This document shows, in pieces, positions 6,559 through 52,010 of a stretch of 64,000 bases of DNA. Origin of the DNA: Trachythela sp. YZ-2020 (lineage: Eukaryota > Cnidaria > Anthozoa > Malacalcyonacea > Clavulariidae); assembly GCA_016169945.1 (NCBI GenBank), contig JADLSH010000073.1, positions 1,984,001-2,048,000 of the forward strand, written 5' to 3'. Made by a program: the position numbers and the translations under genes. The notes under the pieces are model-generated. The model did not search any database. It saw only the letters and a list, made by a program, of their open reading frames with translations, and was not told the DNA's origin. Position 1 is the stretch's first letter. The number at the start of each line of letters is the position of its first letter.

Positions 6559-7285
6559 TCTCAAAACTGGATTGTGATAGATGGTCCACGAAACGCAAAG
6601 AATGCTCGACAACATATAGTTAGAGCAAATTATAGATTTTCGCTTATCTCAAAACTGGATTGTGATAGATGGTCCACGAAACGCAAAGAATGCTCGACAA
6701 CATATAGTTAGAGCAAATTATAGATTTTCGCTTATCTCAAAACTGGATTGTGATAGATGATCCACGAAACGCAAAGAGTGCTCGACAACATATAGTTAGA
6801 GCAAATTATAGCTTTTCGCTAATCTCAAAACTGGATTGTGATAGATGGTCCACGAAACGCAAAGAGTGCTCGACAACATATAGTTAGAGCAAATTATAGA
6901 TTTTCGCTTATCTCAAAACTGGATTGTGATAGATGGTCCACGAAACGCAAAGAATGCTCGACAACATATACTTAGAGCAAATTATAGATTTTCGCTTATC
7001 TCAAAACTGGATTGTGATAGATGGTCCACGAAACGCAAAGAATGCTCGACAACATATAGTTAGAGCAAATTATAGATTTTCGCTTATCTCAAAACTGGAT
7101 TGTGATAGATGGTCCACGAAACGCAAAGAGTGCTCGACAGCATATAGTTAGAGCAAATTATAGCTTTTCGCTTATCTCAAAACTGGATTGTGATAGATGG
7201 TCCACGAAACGCAAAGAGTGCTCGACAACATATAGTTAGAGCAAATTATAGATTTTCGCTTATCTCAAAACTGGATTGTGATATA
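6497..7285. repeat. 88-bp tandem array, nine copies
   Basis: Successive TCCACGAAACGCAAAG starts at 6585, 6673, 6761, 6849, 6937, 7025, 7113 and 7201 give a constant period of 88 bp, with an initial variant unit at 6497. Units differ by one or two substitutions (AGAATG versus AGAGTG, TAGATTTT versus TAGCTTTT), which alternate among copies and imply multi-unit amplification. Frames across it only reflect the lack of stops in the unit. Confidence 0.9.
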
Positions 7286-17950: not shown

Positions 17951-18171
17951 ACATAGGCGACTTGAGTAGCTTATCCTGTCTATCCAGCGGAAAATTAAAT
18001 ATTCAAAATGGCGTCGCGTGCGCATGGTAGTAATTAGTATGCAAGCCGTCATATTGGAAAGTGACGTACCCTCTGAGGTTGCGTAACCTAGAGGTCGTGC
18101 AACCTGGAGGTGAACCGAGTATTAGTATTCATACGCCTGGAAGTATGAATAATAATGAGGTGACGTAACGT

Positions 18172-18240
18172 AAAGCGTTGCGTAACATAAAGCGTTGCGT
18201 AACATAAAGCGTTGCGTAACATAAAGCGTTGCGTAACGTA
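18172..18240 (+). promoter_or_regulatory. tandem GTTGCGTAAC sites upstream of arm promoter
   Basis: TGACGTAAC followed by four spaced copies of GTTGCGTAAC (each with an ATAAAGC spacer) lies 15-90 bp upstream of the TATA-like sequence at 18256. The decamer matches the general RTTGCGYAAY form of C/EBP-family bZIP sites, and TGACGTAA resembles CREB/ATF half-sites. Regulatory use is inferred from placement. Confidence 0.5.
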
Positions 18241-18253
18241 CAGATAATCTGGG

Positions 18254-18450
18254 AGTATAAATTGAGGATATAGATGTATATTGTTAACAACTCGGTATAT
18301 TGCTACTCGGTATATTATTCACGGCTTTCACAGAGAGAACATTGTTGCATATATTTCTTGTGAAAAGACTGGCTTTGATATATTGTTCACAGAGAAAACT
18401 TTACTGGACTGCTTTGAATTTTAAAAGACCTGATTTTAAAGGTAAATACC
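18254..18450 (+). promoter_or_regulatory. inward TATA promoter and putative leader, left arm of element 1
   Basis: AGTATAAATTGAGGATATAG is followed after about 180 bp by AAAG|GTAAATAC, a plausible splice donor at 18440. The AGTATAAAYTGAGGAT word is conserved in all five arms of the two palindromic elements. Direction is toward the element centre. Confidence 0.5.
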
Positions 18451-18604
18451 TATACGTCTGTTAATTTATGTAAACTTTCTTGGTCGTGGTAGACAGTAAA
18501 TGAACTTAAAACACTTTTTGTTGTACGAACGCATTGTACGAGACTATAAACATTGGTTTTTAAGGGGTGTGCGCACGGGGGGCGTGCGTACGCGCGTATG
18601 TCTG

Positions 18605-18760
18605 GAAATTCTCTAAAGCTTCTGTAAAGCTTCTGTAAAGCTTCTGTGGAGCTTCTGTAAAGCTTCTGTGGAGCTTCTGTAAAGCTTCTGTGAAGCTTCT
18701 GTAAAGCTTCTGTGGAGATTCTGCGAAGCTTCTGTAAAACTTCTGTGGAGCTTCTGTGGA
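18605..18760. repeat. AGCTTCTGTAAAG/AGCTTCTGTGG 12-mer tandem repeat
   Basis: About a dozen alternating 12-bp units. The same tract recurs at 20577-20735 and inverted at 23415-23575. Short frames here read repeated STEALQKLYRS-like peptides in two frames, which I regard as repeat artefacts. Confidence 0.85.
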
Positions 18761-18794
18761 GCTCTCCAAAATATGAGTAATTAGTGACGTTTGG

Positions 18795-18960
18795 ATGCAT
18801 GCATAAATTAACACAGACAAAGATTAACGTTTTAAACAATGTATTCCTTTAGGTATAACAATTATTTACACAAATATACAGTTATTAAACATATTGTCCA
18901 GCTTTTACACTGTTTTCTATGCGAGGGTCGATGTGAGGTCAATGTGAGGTCGATGGCCAA
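18795..18960. repeat. module shared by elements 1 and 2, left-arm copy
   Basis: Contains ACACAGACAAAGATTAACG, TTTAGGTATAACAATTATTT, ACATATTGTCCAGCTTTTAC and GCGAGGGTCGATGTGAGGTC in this order. Further copies: 20775-20935, inverted 23220-23385 (element 1); 50325-50510 and inverted 50640-50795 (element 2). It is nearly identical while the cargo genes are unrelated, so it is probably a cis-acting sequence of the family. Confidence 0.9.
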
Positions 18961-19030
18961 ACAAGCCAAAAAGGCCAAACAGGCAAAACAAGCCAAACAG
19001 GCCAAACAGGCAGGAAAGGAAGTAAAATAA
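18951..19030 (+). other. AAACAAGCC-repeat tract (Lys/Ala/Gln-rich reading)
   Basis: Tandem GGCCAAACAGGCAAAACAAG words; one frame reads MAKQAKKAKQAKQAKQAKQA to a stop at 19028. The same tract appears in every arm of elements 1 and 2, but the frame is altered between copies, so I treat it as non-coding repeat rather than a gene. Confidence 0.5.
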
Positions 19031-19119
19031 AAAGATAAAACTCGGTTCGGTAGATGTAAACATTTCGGGGTTCTGCAGGGGTTCTCTCGGGCTTCTGTAG
19101 GGTTCTGTAGGGGTTCCCT

Positions 19120-19700
19120 GGGGGTTATTTTGCTCATGCGTCTTCGTATTTTGCTCATGCGTCTTCGCATTTAGTTCGCATTTTTCTCATGCGTCTTCGC
19201 ATTTAGTTCGCATTTTTCTCATGCGTCTTCGCATTAAGACCTTTGTGGCCCTATGCGCCTTCGCATTTTGCTCATGCGTCTTCGCATTTAATTCGCATTT
19301 TTCTCATGCGTCTTCGCATTAAGGCCCTTCGTGGCCCGATGGCTCGGAATATCTCAGCCTAGCTGGCACCTAGTCTTAAGTTCGCATTTTTCTCATGCGT
19401 CGTCGCATTAAGACCTTTGTGGCCCTATGCGCCTTCGCATTTTGCTCATGCGTCTTCGCATTTAATTCGCATTTTTCTCATGCGTCTTCGCATTTAGTTC
19501 GCATTTTTTCTCATGCGTCTTCGCATTAAGGCCCTTCGTGGCCCGATGGCTCGGAATATCTCAGCCTAGCTGGCACTTAGTCTTAAGTTCGCATTCTGTT
19601 CATGCCTCTTCGCATTAAGGCCTTTGTGACCCTATGTGCCTTCGCATTTTGCTTCGCATTCTGCTTCGCATTCTTCGCATTAAGGCCCAATCAGGCCCGA
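19120..19700. repeat. TCATGCGTCTTCGCATT short tandem repeats with a 65-bp higher-order unit
   Basis: CTCATGCGTCTTCGCATT alternates with AGTTCGCATTTTT, and a longer unit (GGCCCGATGGCTCGGAATAT...CTGGCACCTAGTCTTAAG) occurs twice. The tract recurs at 21105-21410 and inverted at 22500-23045, with different copy numbers in each arm. Confidence 0.9.
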
Positions 19701-19806
19701 TAGAAGGTACGGTACGGCTTAATTCTGGTGTACATTTCTACAAGGACTAATTATTGCTTAAAAGATGAAACAATACACAATACAATTTTGATACATTTTA
19801 TTTCAC

Positions 19807-20129
19807 ATAAGCACTACATCGATTCATTGATCATCATCACTATCTGAGAAACGTCCTTGATCTTCTAAAAGCTGTTTCAACAGAAACTTTCTTTTGTCAA
19901 CCGCTGCAGATAAAGCTTCATCAGGATCAAACGAGTCTTCGTTCACAAATGCCTCCTTCGTTTCCATGATCTTTCTATGCACAGGATCCTTTTTAAGTGC
20001 TTTTATCCAACGTAAATTATCCAGGTAAACGCCAGCGAATTCTTTCTGAAGTTCAGGGAGAATTTTTTCAAAGGCTTTCTGCTTAGCTACACTTTCTTCT
20101 TGCCCATCCATTTGGAACGTTTTCAACAG
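19807..20129 (-). pseudogene. truncated copy of the element 1 cargo gene
   Basis: This is the reverse complement of the last 100 codons of the gene at 21670-22359, nearly identical (Leu to Val and Asn to Ile changes), with the same 3' flank and AATAAA region. It stops abruptly at the junction with the middle arm copy (20130), so promoter, zinc finger and acidic region are absent. It marks how far the inverted duplication reached into the gene. Confidence 0.9.
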
Positions 20130-21531
20130 TTAAAGCGTTGCGTAACGTTTAAATATTAATAGCGTTCCGTAACATAAAGCGTTGCGTAACGTTTAAATAT
20201 TAATAGCGTTGCGTAACATAAAGCGTTGCGTAACATCCATACCGAGAGTATAAACTGAGGATATAGATGCTACTCGGTATATTGTTCACGGCTTTCACAG
20301 AGAGAACATTGTTGGATATATTTCTTGTGAAAAGACTGGCTTTGATATATTGTTCACAGAGAAAACTTTACTGGACTGCTTTGAATTTTAAAAGACCTGA
20401 TTTTAAAGGTAAATACCTATACGTCTGTTAATTTATGTAAACTTTCTTGGTCGTGGTAGACAGTAAATGAACTTAAAACACTTTTTGTTGTACGAACGCA
20501 TTGTACGAGACTATAAACATTGGTTTTTAAGGGGTGTGCGCACGGGGGCGTGCGTACGCGCGTATGTCTGGAAATTCTCTAAAGCTTCTGTAAAGCTTCT
20601 GTAAAGCTTCTGTGGAGATTCTGTAAAGCTTCTGTGGAGCTTCTGTAAAGCTTCTGTGAAGCTTCTGTAAAGCTTCTGTGGAGATTCTGCGAAGCTTCTG
20701 TAAAACTTCTGTGGAGCTTCTGTGGAGCTCTCCAAAATATGAGTAATTAGTGACGTTTGGATGCATGCATAAATTAACACAGACAAAGATTAACGTTTTA
20801 AACAATGTATTCCTTTAGGTATAACAATTATTTACACAAATATACAGTTATTAAACATATTGTCCAGCTTTTACACTGTTTTCTATGCGAGGGTCGATGT
20901 GAGGTCGATGTGAGGTCGATGTGAGGTCGATGGCCAAACAAGCCAAAAAGGCCAAACATGCAAAACAAGCCAAACAGGCCAAACAGGCAGGAAAGGAAGT
21001 AAAATAAAAAGATAAAACTCGGTTCGGTAGATGTAAACATTTCGGGGTTCTGCAGGGGTTCTCTCGGGGTTCTGTAGGGTTCTGTAGGGGTTCCCTGGGG
21101 GTTATTTTGCTCATGCGTCTTCGCATTTTGCTCATGCGTCTTCGCATTTTGCTCATGCGTCTTCGCATTTAGTTCGCATTTTTCTCATGCGTCTTCGCAT
21201 TTAGTTCGCATTTTTCTCATGCGTCTTCGCATTTAGTTCGCATTTTTTCTCATGCGTCTTCGCATTAAGGCCCTTCGTGACCCGATGGCTCGGAATATCT
21301 CAGCCTAGCTGGCACCTAGTCTTAAGTTCGCATTCTGTTCATGCCTCTTCGCATTAAGGCCTTTGTGACCCTATGTGCCTTCGCATTTTGCTTCGCATTC
21401 TTCGCATTAAACCCCAATCAGGCCCGATAGAAGGTACGGTACGGCTTAATTCTGGTGTACATTTCTACAAGGATTAATTATTGCTTAAAAGATGAAACAA
21501 TACACAATACAATTTTGATACATTTTATTTA
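20130..21531. repeat. third (middle) arm copy of element 1
   Basis: Repeats about 18160-19800 in the same orientation, with its own GTTGCGTAAC cluster, TATA word (20249), 12-mer tract, shared module and TCGCATT tract. It lacks the terminal 190 bp, so it is not a separate insertion; its junctions are internal rearrangement points. Confidence 0.85.
20247..20430 (+). promoter_or_regulatory. inward TATA promoter, middle arm copy
   Basis: AGTATAAACTGAGGATATAG with a following leader and AAAG|GTAAATAC donor, as in the left arm. It would read toward the intact cargo gene about 1.4 kb downstream. Confidence 0.4.
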
Positions 21532-21599
21532 GTCATGCGCATGCGTACTCTCTCAAGGACGTTTAAACTAGTTCGCTTGTATTGTCCCACAAGCCAACC

Positions 21600-21669
21600 G
21601 TACGTTTATCGACTATATAACTAGCCACTCTTGACTTTCTTTTCATTCCTTGGGAGCGTGTAGTAGACA
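21600..21669 (+). promoter_or_regulatory. proximal promoter of the element 1 cargo gene
   Basis: CGACTATATAACTAGCC carries a TATA box about 55 bp upstream of the ATG at 21670. It lies in the only unique (non-repeated) interval of the element, 21532-22052. Confidence 0.5.
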
Positions 21670-22359
21670 ATGGGTTCTTATCAGTGTGATCGGTGTCTAA
21701 CACGGTTTTCATCTAATTATAATGTCAGGCGGCATAAAGCGAACCACTGCACGTATGCCCATAGTTTTGACGAAGGCTCCGTGATGGAATACGAAGATAA
21801 GCCAGTATATGATAAAGTGATCACAGATGATGAAATTCCCCGAAAGAAATCCCGTTATATAGAATCGGATGAGGATGATGAAAGTAGTGAGAATGCCGAG
21901 ACAGATGATGATGAAAACAGTGAGAATGCAGAGACAGGTGATGATGAAAACAGTGAGAGTTCCAAAGATGATGGTGAAATAAAGGAAGAGATTGATCCTT
22001 GGGCAACCATGATTGACGATGCAAAAGTGACGGTTGGGCCAGAATATGATGAACTGTTGAAAACGTTCCAAATGGATGGGCAAGAAGAAAGTGTAGCTAA
22101 GCAGAAAGCCTTTGAAAAAATTCTCCCTGAACTTCAGAAAGAATTCGCTGGCCTTTACCTGGATAATTTACGTTGGATAAAAGCACTTAAAAAGGATCCT
22201 GTGCATAGAAAGAACATGGAAACGAAGGAGGCATTTGTGAACGAAGACTCGTTTGATCCTGATGAAGCTTTATCTGCAGCGGTTGACAAAAGAAAGTTTC
22301 TGTTGAAACAGCTTTTAGAAGATCAAGGACGTTTCTCAGATAGTGATGATGATCAATGA
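21670..22359 (+). CDS. element 1 cargo: C2H2 finger, acidic 229-aa protein
   Basis: An intact single-exon frame starting at the first ATG after a TATA box and followed by AATAAA at 22381. Residues 5-26 form one C2H2 zinc finger (CDRCLTRFSSNYNVRRHKANH, Cys-x2-Cys-x12-His-x3-His, shown without its last residues). Residues about 60-115 are strongly acidic with an imperfect repeat (SENAETDDDEN, SENAETGDDEN, SES). The C-terminal 100 residues are a charged helical domain rich in Lys and Glu, with LKKDPVHRK and a DSDDDQ tail. The composition suggests a nuclear DNA-binding or transcriptional protein. I do not recognise the family. It is one of the few undamaged genes in the window, which argues for recent activity or selection. 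Confidence 0.8.
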   Translation: MGSYQCDRCLTRFSSNYNVRRHKANHCTYAHSFDEGSVMEYEDKPVYDKVITDDEIPRKKSRYIESDEDDESSENAETDDDENSENAETGDDENSESSKDDGEIKEEIDPWATMIDDAKVTVGPEYDELLKTFQMDGQEESVAKQKAFEKILPELQKEFAGLYLDNLRWIKALKKDPVHRKNMETKEAFVNEDSFDPDEALSAAVDKRKFLLKQLLEDQGRFSDSDDDQ

Positions 22360-22379
22360 ATCGATGTAGTGCTTATGTG

Positions 22380-22390
22380 AAATAAAATGT
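22380..22390 (+). terminator. poly(A) signal of element 1 cargo gene
   Basis: AATAAAATG about 20 bp past the stop codon. The mirror copy serves the truncated gene near 19798 on the minus strand. Confidence 0.6.
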
Positions 22391-23892
22391 ATCAAAATTG
22401 TATTGTGTATTGTTTCATCTTTTAAGCAATAATTAGTCCTTGTAGAAATGTACACCAGAATTAAGCCGTACCGTACCTTCTATCGGGCCTGATTGGGCCT
22501 TAATGCGAAGGATGCGAAGCAAAATGCGAAGGCGCATAGGGCCACAAAGGCCTTAATACGAAGAGGCATGAACAGAATGCGAACTTAAGACTAAGTGCCA
22601 GCTAGGCTGAGATATTCCGAGCCATCGGGCCACGAAGGGCCTTAATGCGAAGACGCATGAGAAAAAATGCGAACTAAATGCGAAGACGCATGAGAAAAAT
22701 GCGAATTAAATGCGAAGACGCATGAGCAAAATGCGAAGGCGCATAGGGCCACAAAGGTCTTAATGCGACGACGCATGAGAAAAATGCGAACTTAAGACTA
22801 GGTGCCAGCTAGGCTGAGATATTCCGAGCCATCGGGCCACGAAGGGCCTTAATGCGAAGACGCATGAGAAAAATGCGAATTAAATGCGAAGACGCATGAG
22901 CAAAATGCGAAGGCGCATAGGGCCACAAAGGTCTTAATGCGAAGACGCATGAGAAAAATGCGAACTAAATGCGAAGACGCATGAGAAAAATGCAAACTAA
23001 ATGCGAAGACGCATGAGCAAAATACGAAGACGCATGACCAAAATAACCCCCAGGGAACCCCTACAGAACCCTACAGAAGCCCGAGAGAACCCCTGCAGAA
23101 CCCCGAAATGTTTACATCTACCGAACCGAGTTTTATCTTTTTATTTTACTTCCTTTCCTGCCTGTTTGGCCTGTTTGGCTTGTTTTGCCTGTTTGGCCTT
23201 TTTGGCTTGTTTGGCCATCGACCTCACATCGACCTCACATCGACCTCACATCGACCCTCGCATAGAAAACAGTGTAAAAGCTGGACAATATGCTTAATAA
23301 CTGTATATTTGTGTAAATAATTGTTATACCTAAAGGAATACATTGTTTAAAACGTTAATCTTTGTCTGTGTTAATTTATGCATGCATCCAAACGTCACTA
23401 ATTACTCATATTTTGGAGAGCTCCACAGAAGCTCCACAGAAGTTTTACAGAAGCTTCGCAGAATCTCCACAGAAGCTTTACAGAAGCTTCACAGAAGCTT
23501 TACAGAAGCTCCACAGAAGCTTTACAGAAGCTCCACAGAAGCTTTACAGAAGCTTTACAGAAGCTTTAGAGAATTTCCAGACATACGCGCGTACGCACGC
23601 CCCCGTGCGCACACCCCTTAAAAACCAATGTTTATAGTCTCGTACAATGCGTTCGTACAACAAAAAGTGTTTTAAGTTCATTTACTGTCTACCACGACCA
23701 AGAAAGTTTACATAAATTAACAGACGTATAGGTATTTACCTTTAAAATCAGGTCTTTTAAAATTCAAAGCAGTCCAGTAAAGTTTTCTCTGTGAACAATA
23801 TATCAAAGCCAGTGTTTTCACAAGAAATATATCCAACAATGTTCTCTCTGTGAAAGCCGTGAACAATATACCGAGTAGCATCTATATCCTCA

Positions 23893-24080
23893 ATTTATAC
23901 TCCCAGATTATCTGTACGTTACGCAACGCTTTATGTTACGCAACGCTTTATGTTACGCAACGCTATTAATATTTAAACGTTACGCAACGTTTTATGTTAC
24001 GCAACGCTATTAATATTTAAACGTTACGCAACGCTTTATGTTACGCAACGCTTTATGTTACGCAACGCTTTACGTTACGT
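23893..24080 (-). promoter_or_regulatory. inward TATA promoter and GTTGCGTAAC cluster, right arm
   Basis: Reverse complement of the left-arm promoter: TATA word at 23893-23899 with seven or more GTTGCGTAAC-type sites at 23915-24080, two spacer types (ATAAAGC and TTTAAATATTAATA). It points toward the centre, opposite to the cargo gene. Confidence 0.5.
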
Positions 24081-24289
24081 CACCTCATTATTATTCATAC
24101 TTCCAGGCGTATGAATACTAATACTCGGTTCACCTCCAGGTTGCACGACCTCTAGGTTACGCAACCTCAGAGGGTACGTCACTTTCCAATATGGCGGCTT
24201 GCATACTAATTACTACCATGTGCACGCGACGCCATTTTGAATATTTAATTTTCCGCTGGATAGACAGGATAAGCTACTGACTTGCACTA

Positions 24290-30761: not shown

Positions 30762-31130
30762 TTGCGAAGGACTTGTACCAGTGTGGGATATAGTGATACT
30801 GGTGCTTATTATACTGAAGAGCCTATGCGTTTTGCCTGTATTTTGACTTTCTATTTTCAGAGCGAAACTGTGGTTTGTGTTAATCTGTTTGTCTTGTGTA
30901 GTCAACCACGACGAAGGCATGCATGTTTATATGGAAGTATATTGTACAAAAAGAGATCCTACAGCAGATTTTCTTATTATTCAAACTCAAGCGCTACATT
31001 CAACATTCTCTTTATCAGTGGTGATGTAGAACTTAACCCCGGTCCTGTTTCAACTGCACAAGGATGTCCTAACATGCGAAGACAAATTATTCCTGTGATT
31101 TCTGGGACCCGGTCAACTGAGTTTTGTATG
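30762..31130 (+). pseudogene. LINE ORF N-terminus with GDVELNPGP
   Basis: The frame contains FNILFISGDVELNPGP with the core at 31020-31046. D-V-E-x-N-P-G-P is the 2A-like ribosome-skipping consensus: translation is thought to release the chain after Gly and resume at Pro. 2A-like sequences are known near the N-terminus of ORF2 in some non-LTR retrotransposons of invertebrates. About 28 codons later the frame is broken and the endonuclease continues in another frame. The true start is uncertain because a microsatellite lies just upstream. Confidence 0.75.
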
Positions 31131-32449
31131 CATACTCGGCTTTGCCATTATTCAAATCTGGTTCATATCCATTAGCTGCATCTGATATTGTTTATAACAA
31201 TAGAGTGAACTTGATGAAGTGTTGTGTGCTGAATACCCAGTCATTAAGAAACAAAGGTACTGAGTTTGTTGACTATATTTGCGAGTCTAAAGTTGATATT
31301 GCAGTTATCACTGAAACATGGCTGAAACCTATGGATTCAGCAGCTAGAATTGATGCTACACCTAGTGGATACCAACTTTTTGATTATCCACGTCCTGACA
31401 GAATGGGTGGGGGAACAGGTATTCTAGTACGGGATGCACTTTGTGTTAAAAAACATAGCGCTGGTATTAAGAACTCGTTTGAGTACTCGCAGTGGATCAT
31501 TACATCCGGCTCATTTCGGCTACGTCTGGTTGTAATATATAGGCCTCCCTACTCATCCAAACACCCGGTTACTATAAATACTTTTATTACAGAATTTGCT
31601 GAATTTTTGGAAACAGTTGTTATGGCAACTGAGCCTCTTGTAATAGCTGGTGACTTCAATATTCATGTTAATGCACACTTAAACACTGACACCATGAGAT
31701 TCATTGACATTCTTCACTCAATGGGTTTGCTGCAACATGTGGACTTTCCCACTCATGTGTCTGGTAATACTCTGGACTTACTTATAACTCGAGAAATAGA
31801 TTCTATATTGTGTCATGAACCTAGACCTTGTCACTACCTTTCCGATCATTGCTCAGTTACATTTGAACTAAACACATCAAAGCCCCAGTTTTCAAGAAAA
31901 GAGATATCATTCCGGAATACGAAAGCTATTGATAGACCTACCTTTATTCAAGATTTGTCTAACTCTAAACTGTGTCAGGAACCTGAATCTGATCCTGATT
32001 CACTAGTTAATTGCTACAACAAAACATTGTCTACTCTTTTGGATCGATATGCTCCTGAGAAGACCAAAACTGTCACGGTTAGACCTAAGGTGCCATGGTA
32101 TACTCAGGAAATTTGCGAAGTCAAGAGGGAACGTAGGCGTCCAGAAAGGAAATGGAGATCTTCTAGGAACCCTGCAGATTTCTGCCTCTTTAAGAAACTA
32201 AAAAATCGGGTTACATACTTACTGAAAGAGGCTAAATCATCATTTCTCTCTTCGTTTATTGAAAAAAATGGAGATGATCAAGGCAAACTTTTCAGAGCAG
32301 TAAAGAAACTATTAGTAAAGAAAGAAACGTTATTGTTCCCAGGCAATAGCGATAAAACACTTTTAGCAAACAACATTGGAAACTACTTTGTGCAGAAGAT
32401 CTCTAGAATTCGTGATGGAACCAGCGTTCAAGAACTTACGTCCTGTTAG
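31124..32449 (+). pseudogene. LINE apurinic endonuclease
   Basis: 441 codons with all main endonuclease motifs: LNTQSLRNK, VITETWLKP, MGGGTGILV, VVIYRPPYSS, VIAGDFNIHV, TLDLLIT and LSDHCSVTF. The C-terminal part is the basic linker towards RT (VPWYTQEICEVKRERRRPER). The frame ends at 32449, about 70 codons before the RT core would be expected to begin in an intact element, so a deletion or frameshift near 32400 joins it to the RT frame. Acts in the nucleus to nick target DNA. Confidence 0.85.
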
Positions 32450-33788
32450 TAATCTGGCGTTTGTTTCAAAACTCATAGAACGTGCAGCTTTTAATCAGAC
32501 TCACAATCATTTGCAAAGGTCGGCTCTTTACCCTTTGCTTCAATCAGCATACCGTCGATATCACAGCACAGAAACTGCTTTATTGAAAGTTGCTAATGAT
32601 ATTCTTTTGAACATGAACTCTCAACGTGTAACACTTTTAGTTCTACTGGAGTTAAGCTCAGCATTTGACACCGTTGATCACGCGATTTTGCTCAGGCGTT
32701 TGAACACTGAGTTTGGTATTAGCGGAAGAGTTTTAGATTGGTATACATCATATTTATCAGGAAGAAGTCAGCGTATCCTTCTTGATGGAGCTACATCCAA
32801 CACCTTCGACCTGAAATTTGGTGTACCGCAGGGGTCCTGTTTGGGTCCACTTCTGTTTATTGTTTACGCATCTAAGCTGTTCGATATAATTCATGCACAC
32901 CTACCTGATGCTCACTGCTTTGCTGATGACACACAGCTATACTTGTCATTTAAACCTGATGGTTCAATGAATCAAGTGGAAGCTGTGCGTGCTATGGAGA
33001 TCTGTATTGAGGAATTACGAAAGTGGATGCTTCAGGACAAGTTGAAGATAAATGATGAAAAGACAGAAGTTTTAATTATAGGCTCCAGACAGCAACTGGA
33101 GAAAATTGATCCGTGTTATGTCCGTGTAGGTGACACTAACGTTCAGCCTGTTTCCTCTGCGCGTAACCTAGGCACGTGGTTTGACTCAAATCTTTCGATG
33201 ACTGTTCATATAACAAAATCTTGTGGAGCAGCTTTCTTTTGGCTACATAACATTAGACGAATAAGTAATTTTATTCCGAGAGACAAGCTGGAAATGGTCA
33301 TTCATGCATTCGTCACTAGCAGAATTGACTACTGTAATAGCCTGTTATATGGACTGCCTAACTGTGAACTAGCAAAGCTCCAGCGAGTGCAAAATGCGGC
33401 TGCTAGACTCCTAATGTCAACAAGGAAGTATGACCATATCACGCCTGTTTTATGTGAATTGCACTGGCTACCAGTTAAATACAGGATTCAATTTAAGATT
33501 TTACTCTTAACTTTTAAAGCCTTGCGTGGTATGTCTCCAGGATATTTAAGTAGTCTAATTGATGTAAGACAACAGGAGCGTTATTCGTTACGCTCTAGTT
33601 CAAGCATAGTTTTAAATTATCCTAAGGGACGGATGCTGAGTAGTTTTGGAGATCGCTCTTTTAGTGTGGCAGCGCCAAAACTTTGGAATTCTCTCCCTGG
33701 TAGCCTGCGCGTTATATCTTCGTTGCCTACTTTTAAAGTGCAACTGAAAACATATCTCTTTACATCAGCTTTTAACATTTTATCTTAA
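32412..33788 (+). pseudogene. LINE reverse transcriptase (L2-like), motif A Asp replaced
   Basis: Fingers NLRPVSNLAFVSKLIERAA, then motif A as VLLELSSAFDTVDH, where the catalytic LLDLS aspartate is glutamate; motif B GVPQGSCLGPLLF; motif C CFADDTQLYL intact; and a full thumb and C-terminal tail (FWLHNIRRISNFIPRD, LHWLPVKYRIQFKILLLTFK, LWNSLPGSLR). The tail pattern is typical of L2/CR1-group elements. The frame is uninterrupted for about 458 codons, so the copy is young apart from these lesions. Confidence 0.85.
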
Positions 33789-43250: not shown

Positions 43251-44967
43251 TCAAAACCAACGGGGGGTATGCGTGGATGTTAATCCTGAAGGTTGAACAA
43301 ACAAACCGCGAGCCTTAATAAATATACGGTAAAATAACAAAAGTAAACGGCATTTTTCGCCGGAATATGGTTTTCTTTTACGAAATTGTTTTGTTTCGCC
43401 ACACGAAGGATAACGCAAAGTGCCAAATTTGTATTCAGATTTTGTAATATATAGTTACCTTCAATCTTTGACAGAAACTATATACAAAGCTACAGATTAT
43501 AGAAATATGATATAAATGCATGTACTTATATCTAAGGAACATAATTCTTGTGATTGCGTGGCTAAGCTTAGCTTGTTGCGCAAATAGGTTCTAGTGTTAG
43601 AAATAGTAAGAATTAGTCTATAAGTGTATTTTAAACTAAAATTATGATTTTATTCTGTATACAAAAGTGTGTTTAGTGTTTTGATGCAGCGCAGTATTAG
43701 TGAGCGGTGCTCTTTAGAAAATATTCTATTTGTATCTGCCTTCACAACGGAATTGCGCATTTCCAAAATTCTGGAGAGGGAGTTCAATGACAGAGCATTG
43801 AAATATACTCACTTTGAACTTAAAAACAATGTAGTAGAAGATAAATGTCCGATGCCGGATTAAAGATTGAAATGTACTGTAGTTGTTTTCATCTCTAACA
43901 ATTGTTGTTCTGAATAAGTGCGGCGCTTATCAGGGATGTCGCTACTGGGGGGAGGGCGGGGAGGGGGGGGGGGAAGCAGGAAAAGTTGGTCAAACTGGAA
44001 AAATTTTGGTCAAAATAATCGGTCACTTATAAGCTGAAAGTGCGAAAGTATATAGTCAAAAACCAAAATACTTATTGACCAACAGGGAGCGAATTAGCAG
44101 CGAATTGACATCCGGTTTAACAATCAACATTTTTTGTTTCGTTTTGCGCATAAATACGAAAATATCCGGTGACTATAAAAGGCGGAATGACTCTGCGGAA
44201 TGGCATGCGGAATGAGTTGCGCAATGAAAAATTACATCAAGTACATCGTAAATAAACCGCTTTTTCTAATAACGCGGGCTCAATTTTTCTTGTTTTGTTA
44301 TTGTGTGTAATGTTCAAATCACAGAATAGACATGGGTATTCTGTGGTTCAAATATTAATGTTGAATCACTTGAATGTGATATTAAAATCGTTTGAATGTG
44401 ATATTAAAATCGCAAGTACTTTAGTATATTAATCTTAATATCTAATTATTATAAAGGTGAATTTTAAACAATACTAAAATAGGCCTCATAACATCATATC
44501 ATAACAATATATACTTTGTTTTGCATCACATTTTTTAATTCTAGCTAATTTGAATTAGAATTTGCCTTGTAACAGTGTCAATAGAAGACTTCGATAGAAA
44601 ACGTACCTCCTACAAAGGCAAATTCTCCAAGTGTAAGGGTCTACATTATCAATAAGCCATTATCCTTTGTTTGCTCAGAGTTGATCCTACTTGAATTTGC
44701 TGTATATACCGTGTTAACCAACTGTCTTAAACAGACTATTCATATCCTTATCTCTATCAAAAATGTGATGCAAAACAAAGTATATATTATCATGATATGA
44801 TGTTTATATGTTTCTTTTAAACAACAAAATATAGTTCTAAAACAGCACACCAGAGGCCTATTTTAGTATTGTTTAAAATTCACCTTTATAAGATTAATAT
44901 ACTAAAGTACTTACGTTTTTAATATCATATTCAAACGATTTTAATATGACATTCAAGTGATTCAACA

Positions 44968-45217
44968 TTAAAGGTGATGTAAAGTCCCGATGTAAACAAA
45001 CCGGCAACGTCCGTTTGTTTACATTTTAAACACGCTATATTTAAAAAATTATGATGTGTTCTGGTCCGCTATGCTTTAAATAAATACAGATTCGAGTTTC
45101 TGATTTAGAAGATGTCAAATTTTGGTCGAAACAACGCGAAATTTGGGCATTGTTTACATCGCGGGACCCCCCCCCCCCCATAGCACATGCGTAGAATGGA
45201 CTTTACATGGTCTTTAA
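44968..45217. mobile_element. TTAA-flanked MITE nested in the 1477-bp element
   Basis: TTAA at 44968-44971 and 45214-45217; ends AAGGTGATGTAAAGTCC and GGACTTTACATGGTCTT are imperfect inverted repeats. The opposite TIR arm of the host element has the uninterrupted sequence (CAACATTAATATT reverse complement at about 44356), an empty-site control. TTAA targets suggest piggyBac or Kolobok machinery. Confidence 0.85.
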
Positions 45218-45243
45218 TATTGGGCTATTCCATTTAAAAACCA

Positions 45244-45457
45244 TACCCCCCTGTCGAGGACCTCTGCTTTTCAGGATTTTCACCCCACTGCATGTGTCCT
45301 TGACCCCCCTTGGAAGAGTTCTCAACCCCTTCTGGAAGTGTATTTTTACACTTTAACCCCTCTGGAAACAGCAATTCTCTCACATTTTCTTCAATTACCC
45401 TTCTGGAAAAATTGGGTAATTAACCGCCTTGGAAATGGAGGTCCTCGACAGGGGGGT
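45244..45457. mobile_element. 214-bp MITE, TIR ACCCCCCTGTCGAGGACCTC
   Basis: A perfect 20-bp inverted repeat at 45244-45263 and 45438-45457 around CT-rich imperfect repeats (ACCCCTTCTGGAA words). It lies in the same TIR arm as the TTAA MITE and is missing from the other arm. No TSD identified. Confidence 0.8.
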
Positions 45458-46089
45458 TCGGGTATTAAATGTAATACCCCATTGGAACATACAATAACAA
45501 AACTACAAAAAATTGAGCCCGCGTTATTAGAAAAGGCGGTTTATTTACACTGTACTTGATGTAATTTTTCATTCCGCAACTCATTCCGCGTGGCATTCCG
45601 CATGCCATTCCGCAGAGTAATTCCGCCTTTTATAGTCACCGGAAAATATCTAGCTAAACCAGTAAGCCTCACCTTGATTACTCTTGATCCACTATATCCT
45701 CGCAAGATGAAGTGCTTATCAGTCAATTATAAACTGACTAATGGCCTAGCGCTGATTTTATATTCAATCATAGTTTTTTTTGGTGATTGTTAAAACTGAA
45801 ACGGAAAGTTACGTTGTTGGAAGACCAGGTAAATTTATATTATTTGTAACTTGCAAGGTGAGGACATTTTTTCTATATTATATTTTTAATTAATTAATCT
45901 ATTCGTTTGTTTGTTTTGTTTATCATTATAAATAAAATAAATATCAGTAAAAGACAGCATAATTGTTTACCAATTTATTTCGAGTAGTGGTTTTTTATTT
46001 TCTATATATATGCATTTTATTTATTAAATTAAATTATTTTCGCTGGAGAGGGGAGTTTGCATTATCAATAATTTAATGTTAAGGCAGAG

Positions 46090-47425: not shown

Positions 47426-49317
47426 CATCAGAAAGTCAGTACAAAATCGGTTTTCGTCATCTTGGTACAGAGAGTATCCGTTCTTGGAGTATAGCATCTC
47501 GAACGACTCTTCTCATTGTTTTGTGTGTTCTCTATTTCCATCTGGCATTGATCGTCCCAAAGCTGAAGATGCCTGGATAAAAGGTACAAGAAGTTGGAAT
47601 AAAATGAAGGGCAGTCAAGAAAAGGCAAACAAAGAAAATTGAACAAGCACTTTAGCAGTAAATCCCATAAGGCTTCATTGCAAGATTTTGTTAATATTTG
47701 CCAAGGAGACCGTCATATTGAAGTGTTAAGTGCTAGGACCGACGATGAGAAGCTCATGCAAGACCAGCGAGAAGTGATATCTATTTTACTAGACACTTCA
47801 AGAACACTTGCCCAACAAGGACTTGCGTTCCGGGGAAATGAAAATGAAGACGATGGAAACTTTTGCCAAATAGTTGGATTGATGAGTCGTCACGTTCCCT
47901 CGCCTAAAGGATAATAGACTCGCGAGCACAGCGAAAGTATAAAACAACATGCATGGGTCCTGAGAGTCAGAATTAATTTATCAAGATGTTAGCCGATGAA
48001 TGCAGAGAAATGATAGATGCAGAGATAGGCAAGGCTCCTTTTACAGCTGTAATTGCAGATACCACCCAGATGTGTCAAATGATGACCAAATGGCTTACGC
48101 TCTTCGATTTGTTAATGAAGAGAGAAAACCACTGATGCGAACGTTTACTCGAGACCAAGATAGTAATCGATAAGACGGGCGCAGGCCTTACTAAAGCTAT
48201 TTTGCAAGCAGCACAAGAAATAAATGTAGACACCACCACCATCAGGTATCAAACGTACGACAGCGCTTCATCGACGTCTGGAAAATACAAAGGGGCACAA
48301 CAGATTTTTTCAGAATTATTAGAGCGACCTTTTATTTGTACGGCTAGTCTACCTCATGGCTCGAATTTAGTTATTGAATAAGCGTCCGATGCAAGCCCTA
48401 TCATCAGTGATATGTATGACACCTTAGAAGCACTGTATGTTTTCTTTGCTGCAAGCACGAAACGTACTTTCAACCTAAATGAAGTGATGAAAACGTCTTC
48501 AAATTGTCTGAAATTAACTAACTTGTCGAAAAAAAGATGGAGTGCGCGGCCAGATGCGATAAAAGCAGTTTGGGTGGATTGGGGCGAGATCTACCGAAGT
48601 TTGCAAGAGATATCTCAAGATAGGAAATTTGACCAAGAGAGCAGAACCAAAGCATTTGGGTTGCTGAGCAAAATAAAAAGCTTTGACTTTATTTTTGCTA
48701 TTATGTTAATGAAGAACATAATGTTTAAAATGAAGATGATGGTTGACCTTCTCCAAACGGAGGAGTTGGATGTTAGCGGTGCCTTGTTGGCGATGCAAGA
48801 GACAAAAGAACCGAATTCGAAGAACCGAAACGCCATCGATAACGAAGTCCAGGCAGCGTGCCTATTCGCTAGTCAATTCAACGTTGACGCAGAAGCTGAA
48901 TTTCAAAGGATTCATCGAAGACGTGTTCCACCAAGACGCCTGGATCCAAATCCCGAAATCCAGACCAATATGTCTACGGCTACGTTTTATAGAAAAGAGG
49001 TTTTCCTTTTTCTCGACACAATGGTGGAGGTGTTATCAGCAAAGATAAATGGCGTAGAGGACTCATTTAGACCATCTATAGATGTCCTTGATCCAAACTT
49101 AATTCCAACGATCGACAAAGTGGTAAAACTAGCGAATCAGTTTCCAAGCGACATTCCTGGCCCAGAAGCATTCCTAGCTGAACTGGAGATTTTCAACGGG
49201 CATTACGACAAAGTGAAAGTAGAGAGATGCGAAAAAAAAATTACAATTCGCGATGCAGCGAAATTAGCAATGAAATGCAACCGAGAAAAGATGCCTTTTC
49301 CACAAGTTGCCAATGTT
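47400..49317 (+). pseudogene. hAT transposase, TTF zinc finger and catalytic region
   Basis: Frames in order: TTF-type finger (SSWYREYPFLEYS, CFVCSLFPSG, AWIKGTRSWNKMK), DUF4371-like region (SHKASLQDF, QREVISILLDTSRTLAQQGL, FRGNE), catalytic Asp block TPDVSNDDQMAYALRFVNEE after a frameshift near 48060, YDSASSTSGKYKGAQQIF, and the long helical insertion to FPQVAN. Stops and frameshifts occur near 47440, 47645, 47910, 48060, 48175 and 48380. It would cut and paste the host hAT element if intact. The reading is interrupted at 49317 by palindromic element 2. Confidence 0.85.
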
Positions 49318-49394
49318 AGTAGATATGACCCCCCATCCAGCAGAATTTTCCCGCCATATGACGTCAGCATTTTGAGGATCTCGCCATATGACGT

Positions 49395-49620
49395 TATTTG
49401 CGTAGATACGCGTAGATACATGTATATACATGTGGATATGCGTAGATACGCGTAGATACATGTAGATGCATGCGGATATGCGTAGATACGCGTAGATACA
49501 TGTATATACATGCGGATATGCGTAGATACGCGTAGATACATGTAGATGCATGTGGATATGCGTAGATACATGTATATACATGCGGATATGCGTAGATACG
49601 CGTAGATACATGTAGATATG
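49395..49620. repeat. GCGTAGATACGCGTAGATAC minisatellite, left arm
   Basis: Variants of ATGCGTAGATACGCGTAGATACATGTAGATGCATGCG-type units, rich in TACGCGTA, ATGCAT and ACATGT palindromes; mirrored at 51484-51722. Positionally equivalent to the GTTGCGTAAC cluster of element 1 (between terminus and TATA box). Confidence 0.9.
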
Positions 49621-49629
49621 CGTGTTCAG

Positions 49630-49861
49630 AGTATAAACTGAGGATGTAAACATTGTTTTTGGCATTGTGTTTACAAATTTTATAGAGAGAACATTTCCAG
49701 AGAGTCATTACAGGTTTTTATAGAGCTTTGTTAATTTGAAAGGATTTGACCTTTTCTGGTAAGTGTTTATGTTTTAACATGATGACCCGAACTTTTTTAG
49801 CAAAAGTTGGTAATTTATATATTTTTCATAAATATCAGAGCGTTTTATTGCTTGTTTAGAT
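49630..49861 (+). promoter_or_regulatory. promoter, leader exon and intron of left cargo gene
   Basis: GTATAAACTGAGGATG at 49631 (TATA 49632-49638), a leader of about 100 bp, donor CTG|GTAAGT (GT at 49759), pyrimidine-rich end and acceptor TTGTTTAG (49859) three bases before the ATG. TGACGTCA-type CRE palindromes occur in the terminus (about 49364). Mirrored at 51250-51480. Confidence 0.6.
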
Positions 49862-50245
49862 ATGGATTTAACACCTGAAGTGCTTGAATGTCAAACTGTA
49901 GCTGAACTATCAGCTCTTGAAAGCCTGTACGTCTTGAACGAGCAAGAACAAGCTTTAATATTTGAAAGGAAAGTGGAATTAATTGGCCGTTCGCTTGAAT
50001 GGGGGATCGAAAATGAACAGCTAGGGCTTGTTGTGAACCTTATGGATTCTTGGACCCCTGAACAACGGGAAAATTTTATGATGGACTGGCAAGACGACGA
50101 ACCCCTGTTACAAATGGGCCGTGGCGAAAAAAGATCGTTCGAGGACGATGGTGCTGAGACGAGCATGACTGAAAACAACTTTACTGTGACGAACGTCAAA
50201 CAAGTTAAAGTGAAAAAGTTCAAAAGGAGGAAAAATGGGGTTTAA
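49862..50245 (+). CDS. element 2 cargo, 127-aa acidic/basic protein, left copy
   Basis: Intact frame whose ATG immediately follows a predicted 3' splice site. The N-terminal two thirds are helical and acidic (MDLTPEVLECQTVAELSALE, LEWGIENEQLGLVVNLMDSW, TPEQRENFMMDW), and the C-terminus is strongly basic (VKVKKFKRRK), a likely nuclear-localisation signal. No known domain recognised. The mirror copy differs by a handful of positions only (Pro/Thr at residue 5, Met/Thr in QMGRG, Asn/Lys near the end), so both are kept intact. Function unknown; a small nuclear regulatory or DNA-associated protein is plausible. Confidence 0.75.
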   Translation: MDLTPEVLECQTVAELSALESLYVLNEQEQALIFERKVELIGRSLEWGIENEQLGLVVNLMDSWTPEQRENFMMDWQDDEPLLQMGRGEKRSFEDDGAETSMTENNFTVTNVKQVKVKKFKRRKNGV

Positions 50246-50324
50246 CGAATACGAAAATGTATACATTTTTAGCGCAAAATAATGTTGCTAGGACACCACT
50301 TTGCTTGGATACGCGCATAAACTA

Positions 50325-50510
50325 ACACAGACAAAGATTAACGTTTTCAACAAGTTTATTCCTTTAGGTATAACAATTATTTACACAAATATACAGTTAT
50401 TAAACATATTGTCCAGCTTTTACACTGTTTTCTATGCGAGGGTCGATGTGAGGTCGATGCGAGGTCGATGTGAGGTCGATGTGAGGTCGATGTGAGGTCG
50501 ATGGCCAAAC
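50325..50510. repeat. shared module, element 2 left copy
   Basis: Same ordered words as in element 1 (ACACAGACAAAGATTAACG to GCGAGGGTCGATGTGAGGTC, the last repeated five times). It lies between the cargo gene and the centre of the palindrome and may supply 3' processing for the gene: ATAATGTTGC and TTTATTCC (AATAAA on the opposite strand) are nearby. Confidence 0.85.
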
Positions 50511-50515
50511 AAGTC

Positions 50516-50585
50516 GGGGTTCTGTAGGGGTTCTCTCAGGGTTCTGAGAACCCCTACAGAACCCCGAGAGAACCCCGAGAGAACC
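50516..50585. repeat. centre of palindrome, CCCCTACAGAACCCCGAGAG repeat
   Basis: GGGGTTCTGTAGGGGTTCTC meets its complement here with almost no spacer, so the element lacks a unique central region. The same word family appears in element 1 arms (19060-19120, 21040-21095, 23045-23100). Confidence 0.85.
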
Positions 50586-50865
50586 TCTGTTTGGCCTTTT
50601 TGGCTTGTTTGGCTTGTTTGGCCTGTTTGGCTTGTTTGGCCATCGACCTCACATCGACCTCACATCGACCCTCGCATAGAAAACAGTGTAAAAGCTGGAC
50701 AATATGTTTAATAACTGTATATTTGTGTAAATAATTGTTATACCTAAAGGAATAAACTTGTTGAAAACGTTAATCTTTGTCTGTGTTAGTTTATGCGCGT
50801 ATCCAAGCAAAGTGGTGTCCTAGCAACATTATTTTGCGCTAAAAATGTATACATTTTCGTATTCG

Positions 50866-51249
50866 TTAAACCCCCTTTTTCCTCCTTTTGAACTTTTTCA
50901 CTTTAACTTGTTTGACGTTCGTCACAGTAAAGTTGTTTTCAGTCATGCTCGTCTCAGCACCATCGTCCTCGAACGATCTTTTTTCGCCACGGCCCGTTTG
51001 TAACAGGGGTTCGTCGTCTTGCCAGTCCATCATAAAATTTTCCCGTTGTTCAGGGGTCCAAGAATCCATAAGGTTCACAACAAGCCCTAGCTGTTCATTT
51101 TCGATCCCCCATTCAAGCGAACGGCCAATTAATTCCACTTTCCTTTCAAATATTAAAGCTTGTTCTTGCTCGTTCAAGACGTACAGGCTTTCAAGAGCTG
51201 ATAGTTCAGCTACAGTTTGACATTCAAGCACTTCAGTTGTTAAATCCAT
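50866..51249 (-). CDS. element 2 cargo, right (mirror) copy
   Basis: Reverse-complement copy of the 49862-50245 gene, also intact, with its own acceptor and TATA promoter (TATA 51473-51479, minus strand). The two genes converge on the centre. Conservation of both frames suggests recent formation or ongoing arm-to-arm gene conversion. Confidence 0.75.
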   Translation of the reverse strand: MDLTTEVLECQTVAELSALESLYVLNEQEQALIFERKVELIGRSLEWGIENEQLGLVVNLMDSWTPEQRENFMMDWQDDEPLLQTGRGEKRSFEDDGAETSMTENNFTVTNVKQVKVKKFKRRKKGV

Positions 51250-51483
51250 ATCTAAACAAACAATAAAACGCTCTGATATTTATGAAAAATATATAAATTA
51301 CCAACTTTTGCTAAAAAAGTTCGGGTCATCATGTTAAAACATAAACACTTACCAGAAAAGGTCAAATCCTTTCAAATCAACAAAGCTCCATAAAAACCTG
51401 TAATGACTCTCTGGAAATGTTCTCTCTATAAAATTTGTAAACACAATGCCAAAAACATTGTTTACATCCTCAGTTTATACTCT

Positions 51484-51722
51484 GAACACGCATATCTACA
51501 TGTATCTACGCGTATCTACGCATATCCGCATGTATATACATGTATCTACGCATATCCACATGCATCTACATGTATCTACGCGTATCTACGCATATCCGCA
51601 TGTATATACATGTATCTACGCGTATCTACGCATATCCGCATGCATCTACATGTATCTACGCGTATCTACGCATATCCACATGTATATACATGTATATACA
51701 TGTATCTACGCGTATCTACGCA
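51484..51722. repeat. minisatellite, right arm of element 2
   Basis: Mirror of 49395-49620 with a different number and order of units, showing that the two arms drift in copy number while the genes stay alike. Confidence 0.9.
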
Positions 51723-51803
51723 AATGACGTCATATGGCGAGATCCTCAAAATGCTGACGTCATATGGCGGGAAAATTCTGCTGGATGGGGGGTCATATCT
51801 ACT

Positions 51804-52010
51804 AATGTTTACTGCTTGTTTCTATGCAAGAGTGAAAGGACATTTAGTCGCTTAAAACTTCTTAAAAAAGTACCATGACACAAGAACGACTTGACAACCT
51901 GATGGTTCTTTTTTAGCAAAAGAGATATTGCTGACAAGCTTTCCATAGAAAAGGTGGTCGACAAATGGACAAAAATCAGACGTCGGAGAATTGTGCTTTC
52001 GTAGCTCATA
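51804..52010 (+). pseudogene. hAT transposase C-terminal dimerisation region
   Basis: Directly after the right TSD the transposase resumes: CKSERTFSRLKLLKK corresponds to the conserved SAERSFS.LK.IK motif of the hATC domain, followed after a frameshift by ERLDNLMVLF-like and DIADKLSIEKVVDKWTKIR segments, the usual protein end. The first codons use the duplicated AATGTT. Confirms that element 2 interrupted this gene. Confidence 0.85.

Follow-up and report, generated by a model that had tools for sequence, protein, structure and literature searches.

A palindromic element with Polinton-like ends

The 64-kb window (the whole stretch of DNA analyzed) contains a palindromic element, referred to here as element 2, at positions 49318 to 51803 (2,486 bp). 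It begins with AGTAGA, ends with TCTACT, and is flanked by a perfect 6-bp target site duplication (TSD), AATGTT. Its features are as follows.

49312 to 49317, no strand: left TSD copy, AATGTT (sequence)
49318 to 50546, plus: left arm (inverted-repeat comparison)
49399 to 49618, plus: tandem array in the left terminal region, ~40-bp unit, 5.8 copies (repeat search)
49632 to 49637, plus: TATAAA, putative promoter of the left polB fragment (motif)
49759 to 49859, plus: putative 5'-UTR intron, GTAAGT donor to TTTAG acceptor (sequence; splicing predicted)
49862 to 50245, plus: left truncated polB ORF, 127 aa (ORF list and homology)
50305 to 50470, plus: shared module, left copy (94.6 to 95.5% identity over 166 to 177 bp with three element 1 copies)
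50355 to 50360, minus: mirror of AATAAA (motif; putative use)
50399 to 50404, plus: ATTAAA, variant poly(A)-like hexamer between the left ORF and the center (motif; putative use)
50471 to 50640, no strand: asymmetric center with GGTCGATGTGA, GGCCAAACA, and GGGGTTCTGTA-type minisatellites (repeat search and arm comparison)
50547 to 51803, minus: right arm, an inverted copy of the left arm (inverted-repeat comparison)
50587 to 50806, minus: shared module, right copy (90.0 to 94.5% identity over 220 to 231 bp with three element 1 copies)
50707, minus: mirror of ATTAAA (motif; putative use)
50751 to 50756, plus: AATAAA in the right arm, past the center (motif; putative use)
50866 to 51249, minus: right truncated polB ORF, 127 aa (ORF list and homology)
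51474, minus: mirror of TATAAA, right polB fragment (motif)
51493 to 51716, minus: tandem array, right arm counterpart, 40-bp unit, 5.8 copies (repeat search)
51804 to 51809, no strand: right TSD copy, AATGTT (sequence)

The left arm thus runs from the AGTAG terminus through the array, a promoter-like and intron-like leader, the polB 5' fragment, and the shared module to the minisatellites. The preliminary description had proposed a palindrome with AGTAG ends and an AATGTT duplication, and the inverted pair, the TSD, and the complementary termini confirm that the palindrome is real. The longest inverted pair matches 49400 to 50470 with 50641 to 51711 (1,071 nt, 99% complementary). With the arrays excluded, the two arms differ at 1 of 81 positions in the outer terminal inverted repeat (TIR) and at 7 of 822 positions in the arm body, three of which fall within the 384-bp ORF. 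Across the whole window, three AGTAG...CTACT pairs with a spacing of 300 to 40,000 bp are flanked by a 6-bp duplication; in two of these, elements 1 and 2, the ends are complementary at 30/30 positions. When element 2 is removed and its flanks are joined, an open frame runs across the site; a Pfam search there matched no family, so the frame corresponds to no confirmed known gene.

The TSD of element 2 fits Polinton/Maverick elements, and its termini come close to theirs. Vertebrate Mavericks have (AGT)2//(ACT)2 ends and 6-bp TSDs, and their polymerase belongs to a protein-primed family (PMC8097293). The TSD is 6 bp long in both elements in the window (AATGTT and GACTTG), the ends AGTAGA (element 2) and AGTAGC (element 1) each agree with the vertebrate (AGT)2 at 5 of 6 letters, and the first 120 codons of a viral-type family B DNA polymerase lie near the end of element 2, twice. 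No integrase, ATPase, protease, or capsid gene was recognized in or beside element 2 from the ORF list, in which six ORFs of at least 120 aa touch 49318 to 51803: the two polB fragments, three that overlap the terminal arrays, and one lying mostly in the left flank (48412 to 49455). Neither the latter nor the left polB fragment had a Pfam match.

The mirrored ORFs are 5' fragments of polB

The mirrored ORFs had been described as two intact genes. Both are indeed open and 127 aa long, with 124 of 127 residues identical between their products, but alignment with P0146 identifies them as truncated 5' ends of polB, and the whole-gene reading was rejected. P0146 is an 837-aa viral-type family B DNA polymerase with a DNA_pol_B_2 domain at residues 561 to 760; its residues 1 to 120 align without gaps to residues 1 to 120 of the ORF (86/120 identical, 72%). 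Similarly, the ORF matches residues 1 to 122 of P0148 (DNA_pol_B_2 at 563 to 760) at 79/122 positions with two gap columns. Residues 1 to 120 are, judging from these alignments, the N terminus of a viral-type family B DNA polymerase, while the last seven form a fused tail unrelated to the polymerase.

Six of 157 candidates pass an E value of ≤0.01, and five of these bear PF03175; those five proteins are 693 to 907 aa long, whereas both element 2 copies end at residue 127. Four N-terminal relatives (P0004, P0009, P0010, and P0012) have 86 to 95% identity across 56 to 74% of the ORF. The break point is reached in a pattern-recognizable form by 19 of 30 relatives (24 + 6), and in all 19 polymerase-like sequence, not the fused tail, continues past it. 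The tail occurs in none of the 30 relatives, among which no second copy of the product is known. An intron at codon 120 was rejected, as no GT donor follows the break and P0146 is uninterrupted there. Element 2 lacks a complete polB, both copies being limited to the 5' 120 codons, and in the window as a whole these two mirrored pieces were the only polB matches at an E value of ≤1 (13 query proteins chosen from 150). All three codon differences between the copies are nonsynonymous, so the fragment displays no sign of upkeep by selection.

The proposed link to a polB-bearing parent that shares the arm holds at the protein level, because the arm ORF corresponds to the PolB N terminus. Searches for parent DNA found no relative in IMG/VR viral contigs (by protein or alignment and by exact DNA pattern) or in GTDB genome contigs (by protein and by exact pattern). 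In the structure model of the 127-aa product, residues 1 to 50 are mainly helical (block pLDDT, 89 to 95), but residues 80 to 108 fall below a pLDDT of 50, and the pTM of the model is 0.45. Foldseek comparison of the model with BFVD gave 30 matches at an E value of ≤10 and none at ≤0.001, and three weak matches, to chains of TRIM32 and ZBTB10, came from searching PDB sequences with a profile of PolB. In PHROGs, both of two polymerases matched DNA polymerase families, and neither the 127-aa ORF nor the 229-aa ORF of element 1 (see below) was matched; NCBIfam gave one meaningless match, below the cutoff.

The putative leader intron ends two bases upstream of the ATG and is mirrored in the other arm. 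Reading on from the left ORF, the AATAAA at 50751 is the first poly(A)-like hexamer of canonical form. RNA spanning 50246 to 50775 has a folding energy of −343.7 kcal/mol, a value reached by 0 of 100 shuffles. Any transcript running past the center would end in a long hairpin. The existence of such a transcript is uncertain, however, because the ATTAAA at 50399 could stop transcription before the center. Both hexamers precede the antisense polB (50866 to 51249), so that double-stranded RNA to polB would need read-through.

The two arms share a junction but not a symmetric center

The truncation junction, consisting of codon 120, the filler, and the shared module, is identical in both arms. The element had been described as inverted copies joined center to center; the arms are inverted, but the center is no clean mirror. 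Instead, it consists of ~170 bp in which the numbers of minisatellite units are unequal between arms, with GGTCGATG units more numerous in the left arm and GGCCAAACA units more numerous in the right. The best perfect palindrome within 50500 to 50590 spans 7 bp on each side of 50546. A fresh snap-back would be symmetric, and the center does not match one.

Element 1 looks like a different family

The other Polinton-like element in the window has inverted arms and a third, partial arm.

17959 to 17964 and 24279 to 24284, no strand: TSD, GACTTG (sequence)
17965 to 24278, no strand: element 1 (TSD, ends, and repeat comparison)
17965 to 20131, plus: left arm, L (repeat comparison)
20132 to 21530, plus: third arm copy, L', direct relative to L and lacking the terminus (repeat comparison)
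21670 to 22359, plus: 229-aa ORF (ORF list and homology)
22052 to 24278, minus: right arm, R, inverted relative to L (repeat comparison)

Element 1 has the ends AGTAGC/GCTACT, and the inner end of arm L holds an inverted 3' part of the 229-aa gene. The product of this gene has an N-terminal C2H2-like finger (its Pfam matches are weak and below the cutoff), 201 homologues at an E value of ≤0.01, and a structure model with a mean pLDDT of 64.8. Arm divergence is 5/854 between L and R, 11/860 between L' and R, and 12/849 between L' and L, which hints that L' may be older than the other arms, although the counts are too small for a claim. In each of the three arms, the same GGGGTTCTGTA minisatellite adjoins the inner side of the shared module (19067 to 19116, 21044 to 21093, and, inverted, 23055 to 23104). 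A protein search of the window found no polB in these arms.

Element 2 had initially been taken for a second member of the element 1 family. The two have in common the terminus style, short promoter motifs, and one module (90 to 95% identity over 166 to 231 bp), and they align in a TATA-box stretch of ~17 to 20 bp, a AGAGAGAACATT stretch, and the splice-donor context. Despite the matching motifs, a single family was rejected, as identity is near that of shuffled sequence both for the first 60 bp of the TIR (43.3%; shuffled mean, 44.0%) and for the promoter (53.4%; shuffled maximum, 52.7%). By sequence, element 1 looks like a different family with a fold-back plan of its own.

Origin of the palindrome

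The locus had been compared to palindromic defective genomes. An inverted duplication of one terminus with part of a replication gene is indeed present, but the junction common to both arms speaks against direct snap-back of the parent, and a one-step event was rejected as the simplest reading. Most simply, deletion would have preceded duplication, because both arms bear the identical junction; homogenization of the arms after duplication offers a way out.

We lean, with slightly more confidence than doubt, toward element 2 being a non-autonomous palindromic derivative of a Polinton polB end, mobilized in trans and formed by inverted template switching. An internal deletion would have linked polB codon 120, via a short filler, to the module and the G-rich minisatellites. 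At these minisatellites, the deletion derivative would then have become an inverted duplication, most likely when a growing 3' end switched template to its own strand or to a partner during linear strand-displacement (protein-primed) replication. Finally, a Polinton integrase acting in trans would have inserted the palindrome and created the 6-bp duplication. With one and the same terminus at either end, and with displaced strands that can each pair with themselves, such a molecule could re-form its double-stranded origin at once and outpace its parent in replication, like snap-back defective genomes. It might also still encode the helical N-terminal region of PolB, twice. Counting against this reading are the negative scans of viral and genome contigs for parent DNA, the ends that agree with the Maverick motif at 5 of 6 letters, and the asymmetric center.

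A less probable origin, though one with some appeal, starts from an ancestor with an element 1-like plan (arm, module, minisatellite, gene, minisatellite, module, and arm). Recombination or slippage between its inverted G-rich minisatellites would have removed the gene in the middle, so that only a palindrome was left. Element 2 itself would then have been born without snap-back, and the end product would be the same. The GGGGTTCTGTA minisatellites of element 1 do flank a gene where element 2 has its center, and an asymmetric center is expected from deletion between unequal positions. However, element 1 itself is not the ancestor, because its arms lack polB and because neither its TIR nor its promoter aligns more than marginally with the element 2 counterpart, and the inverted arms of any such ancestor would still require an inverted-duplication event.

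Repair of a chromosomal break within an integrated element, with the polB end copied twice in inverted orientation, is improbable. It would leave the original TSD in place, and the product would resemble Mu killer, an inverted-duplicated transposon end (PMC3440606). Yet two separate elements in the 64-kb window both have long inverted arms, which favors a replicative habit. Furthermore, Polintons are not known to excise in a way that leaves a repairable gap.

We give very little credence to capture of a polB fragment by a conventional fold-back element from some other DNA transposon superfamily. The long inverted arms with tandem arrays do resemble FB/TU-type foldbacks, but those have 8- to 9-bp TSDs, whereas both elements here have 6 bp; the 6-bp TSD and AGTAG ends suit Polintons, and, as in a native polB end, the polB piece starts exactly with Met1 and has a promoter-like and intron-like leader upstream. 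Although inverted chimeras are common in amplified DNA, an assembly or amplification artifact is scarcely credible: the flanks are distinct, the TSD is perfect, the arms differ by 8 substitutions over 903 aligned positions outside the arrays, their arrays and minisatellites are unequal in length, and these hallmarks recur in a second element.

Extending the template-switching account, we suggest tentatively, and with more doubt than belief, that Polintons of this lineage, as they replicate linearly by protein priming, repeatedly yield snap-back, defective interfering-like genomes that are integrated in trans as fossils of replication intermediates. Element 2 would then be a snap-back genome of the polB end that interferes with its parent by competing for the origin, through hairpin RNA, or through the truncated PolB N domain. 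Mavericks have genes for capsid proteins and for a protein-primed polymerase, but their particles have reportedly not been observed (PMC8097293). Integrated palindromes of one end with a clipped polB would be sequence-level fossils of linear Maverick replication that could be counted in any genome. Central junctions shared among copies would point to a mobile parasite family, and private ones to recurrent snap-back.

Comparison with known systems

With Polintons/Mavericks, element 2 shares a polB 5' end behind the terminus, AGTAG inverted termini, and a 6-bp TSD; it differs in being palindromic, in having only 120 polB codons, and in having no other Polinton gene found. At 2.5 kb, it is also small compared with intact vertebrate Mavericks, which measure 12.7 to 24.6 kb (PMC8097293). 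Among the open-licence papers listed, none reported palindromic Polinton derivatives, as judged from titles and the opening lines of abstracts. Palindromic defective genomes of adenoviruses likewise duplicate, in inverted orientation, one end of a linear genome that replicates by protein priming, but they are episomal and packaged and have no integrase-type TSD.

The 5' snapback genomes (5'-SBG) of adeno-associated virus (AAV) carry one end of the genome twice in self-complementary form, including its early promoter and a portion of the replication gene (PMC8235507). Element 2 resembles them in having one end duplicated self-complementarily together with part of a replication gene. In contrast, AAV is a parvovirus whose 5'-SBG are packaged episomes, while element 2 is integrated with a TSD, and its two arms carry the same deletion junction.

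In Mu killer, a MuDR derivative in maize, both TIRs come from one end of the element, and its two partial copies of the transposase gene end in an inverted duplication of ~1,300 bp (PMC3440606). Both it and element 2 carry one transposon end twice in a large inverted duplication, with a partial transposase there and a partial polymerase here. The transposon types differ, and silencing, which was demonstrated for Mu killer, is only conceivable for element 2, in which poly(A)-like hexamers (50399 and 50751) stand before the antisense polB. The transposon that gave rise to Mu killer is not known to be protein-primed, and thus a palindromic shape does not in itself prove protein priming. By analogy with 5'-SBG in AAV and Mu killer in maize, palindromes such as element 2 would be candidate agents that restrain their parents.

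Structure of element 2

The palindrome reported for element 2 in the preliminary description is present in this Polinton/Maverick-like element, with AATGTT flanks, AGTAG-type ends, and mirrored left (49318 to 50546) and right (50547 to 51803) arms. The arms held up, but the tidy center did not, as it consists of about 170 bp of minisatellites whose unit number is unequal between the arms.

Features of element 2
49318-51803, the element, bounded by perfect 6-bp direct repeats of AATGTT; ends AGTAGA/TCTACT
49632, TATAAA, upstream of the left ATG; mirrored on the other strand
49759-49859, putative (plausible) leader intron, upstream of the left ATG; mirrored on the other strand
50305-50470 and 50587-50806, copies of the shared module, a block found in the arms of both elements
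50399, ATTAAA variant, nearest poly(A)-like hexamer on the 3′ side of the left ORF; before the center
50471-50640, center; perfect palindrome of 7 bp, at 50546
50751, AATAAA, the first canonical hexamer downstream of the left ORF; beyond the center

The longest inverted pair is 1,071 nt, with 99% complementarity. When the tandem arrays are left out, the arms mismatch at 1 of 81 positions in the outer TIR and at 7 of 822 positions in the body, of which 3 fall in the ORF (3/384); the arrays themselves are of unequal length between the arms. These substitutions and length differences are evidence against a mirror image produced by assembly. Three AGTAG...CTACT pairs with a 6-bp duplication were found in the window, and two of these, elements 1 and 2, have ends that are complementary at 30 of 30 positions.

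At the insertion site, an open frame (48412 to 49317 and then 51810 onwards) stays open for a further 22 codons when the flanks are joined into the empty site. This frame resembles what we take to be the end of a hAT-type transposase; Pfam gave no family for the joined empty site. Elsewhere in the window, nested inverted repeats lie at 44158 to 45650 (arms of 95, 83, 70, 61, 53, and 44 nt; 85 to 95% complementarity), and tandem repeats are found at 6495 to 7283 (88-bp unit, 9 copies, 97% matches) and 8724 to 11062 (126 bp, 18.6 copies), the latter encoding TPR repeats with a nephrocystin-3 TPR match. Reverse transcriptase ORFs occur at 12610 to 13791 and 31124 to 33788, and the second adjoins an endonuclease-type ORF in what appears to be an arrangement as in non-LTR retrotransposons. 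Together with the nephrocystin-type TPR gene, these ORFs point to a eukaryotic host, possibly an animal.

The arms encode a clipped polB

The left 127-aa ORF had no match in a Pfam scan. A protein search admitting only proteins of similar length gave matches for 24 of 27 candidates, several of which extend beyond the end point of the ORF. Because of this length limit, the same residues were also searched against proteins of greater length. Of 157 candidates, 6 passed, and DNA_pol_B_2 is present in 5 of the 6. Residues 1 to 120 align without gaps to residues 1 to 120 of P0146, an 837-aa family B DNA polymerase with DNA_pol_B_2 at 561 to 760 (E = 3.4e-25), and 86 of the 120 are identical; for another relative, P0148, identity is 79/122 with 2 gap columns. 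One of the shorter matches, P0024, shares 182 of 200 residues with P0146 residues 85 to 284. By pattern recount, the break point is reached in recognizable form by 19 of the 30 fetched relatives, all 19 of which read on polymerase-like, and the fused tail, seven residues after codon 120, was found in none of the 30. Given the polymerase alignments and the relatives that continue through the break point, each arm carries the first 120 codons of a viral-type polB, starting with Met1, followed by seven unrelated residues and a stop. Thus, what had been described as two intact mirror-image genes are polB 5′ fragments, as the P0146 alignment shows.

When 13 of the 150 fetched proteins served as queries, a search of the window at E ≤ 1 detected no polB pieces beyond these two. 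Over 56% of the ORF, the N terminus of P0010, a fetched relative, matches the arm at 90% identity. The longest contig is 101,898 bases for both P0010 and P0150, and from this shared longest contig the two may be frame pieces of one broken polB. Two further relatives, P0001 and P0002, represent separate clusters of clipped polB 5′ ends that have a different fused tail in common, which suggests that another polB-truncated derivative is present in more than one copy.

All three codon differences between the two ORF copies are nonsynonymous, and these very few changes give no sign of selection on the protein. In the structural model of the 127-aa product (mean pLDDT, 70.4; pTM, 0.45), residues 1 to 50 form a block with pLDDT of 89 to 95 and residues 80 to 108 fall below 50, consistent with retention of a helical N-terminal region; no fold match was found in BFVD. 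If the AATAAA at 50751 is used, the transcript would finish in a long hairpin, as the predicted fold of RNA 50246 to 50775 has an energy of −343.7 kcal/mol and none of 100 shuffles was as low. Both hexamers precede the antisense polB, and so RNAi against polB would require read-through.

Comparison with element 1

Features of element 1, a separate Polinton-like element
17965-24278, the element; TSD GACTTG; ends AGTAGC/GCTACT; long inverted arms and a third, partial arm
18791-19009, 20757-20986, and 23162-23391, copies of the shared module
21670-22359, 229-aa gene; N-terminal C2H2-like finger, below the Pfam cut-off

Element 2 had been called a second family member, but the two elements do not look like one family. 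The first 60 bp of their TIRs are 43.3% identical (shuffled mean, 44.0%; without gaps, the first 30 bases agree at 18 positions) and their promoter blocks 53.4% (shuffled maximum, 52.7%). Short motifs do line up: the TATA box, AGAGAGAACATT, and the splice donor. The 229-aa protein, matched by 201 of 664 candidate proteins at E ≤ 0.01, has an acidic middle and a helical C-terminal part.

The shared module is 90 to 95% identical over 166 to 231 bp in all six pairings of element 1 and element 2 copies, with 108/112 and 111/114 positions identical in its core. It lies within the arms in element 1 and adjoins the center in element 2, with the same G-rich minisatellite beside both, and is common to two elements that are otherwise hardly alignable at termini and promoters. 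Recent exchange of the module between Polinton families, or strong constraint on it, would explain this.

In element 1, the third arm copy is in direct repeat and the left arm holds an inverted 3′ part of the 229-aa gene, as if the layout had arisen by two successive inverted template switches. The two elements have no central junction in common, and this sample of two leans toward separate inversion events and away from a single palindromic family.

Origin of the palindrome

The junction of polB codon 120, filler, and shared module is identical in both arms of element 2, which is most simply read as an internal deletion that came ahead of the inverted duplication. Alternatively, the arms may have been homogenized after duplication, giving the common junction secondarily. 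With the deletion placed first, a somewhat probable reading is that a deletion derivative of a Polinton polB end was doubled by inverted template switching during linear replication and that the palindromic product was then inserted by an integrase acting in trans. The main rival, loop deletion at the inverted minisatellites of a foldback element with an element 1-like build, seems rather unlikely. Scans of viral contigs and genome contigs, exact-pattern scans included, gave no relative as parent DNA, and the matches listed in the open-licence literature include no earlier report of a palindromic Polinton derivative.

The terminal AGT repeats of Mavericks have been read as permitting jump-back of protein-primed initiation (PMC8097293). 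The AAV 5′-SBGs share the plan of element 2, with one genome end and a partial replication gene (rep), and they down-regulate Rep (PMC8235507). Mu killer shows this same plan in MuDR (PMC3440606), and the palindromic shape by itself is therefore no proof of protein priming.
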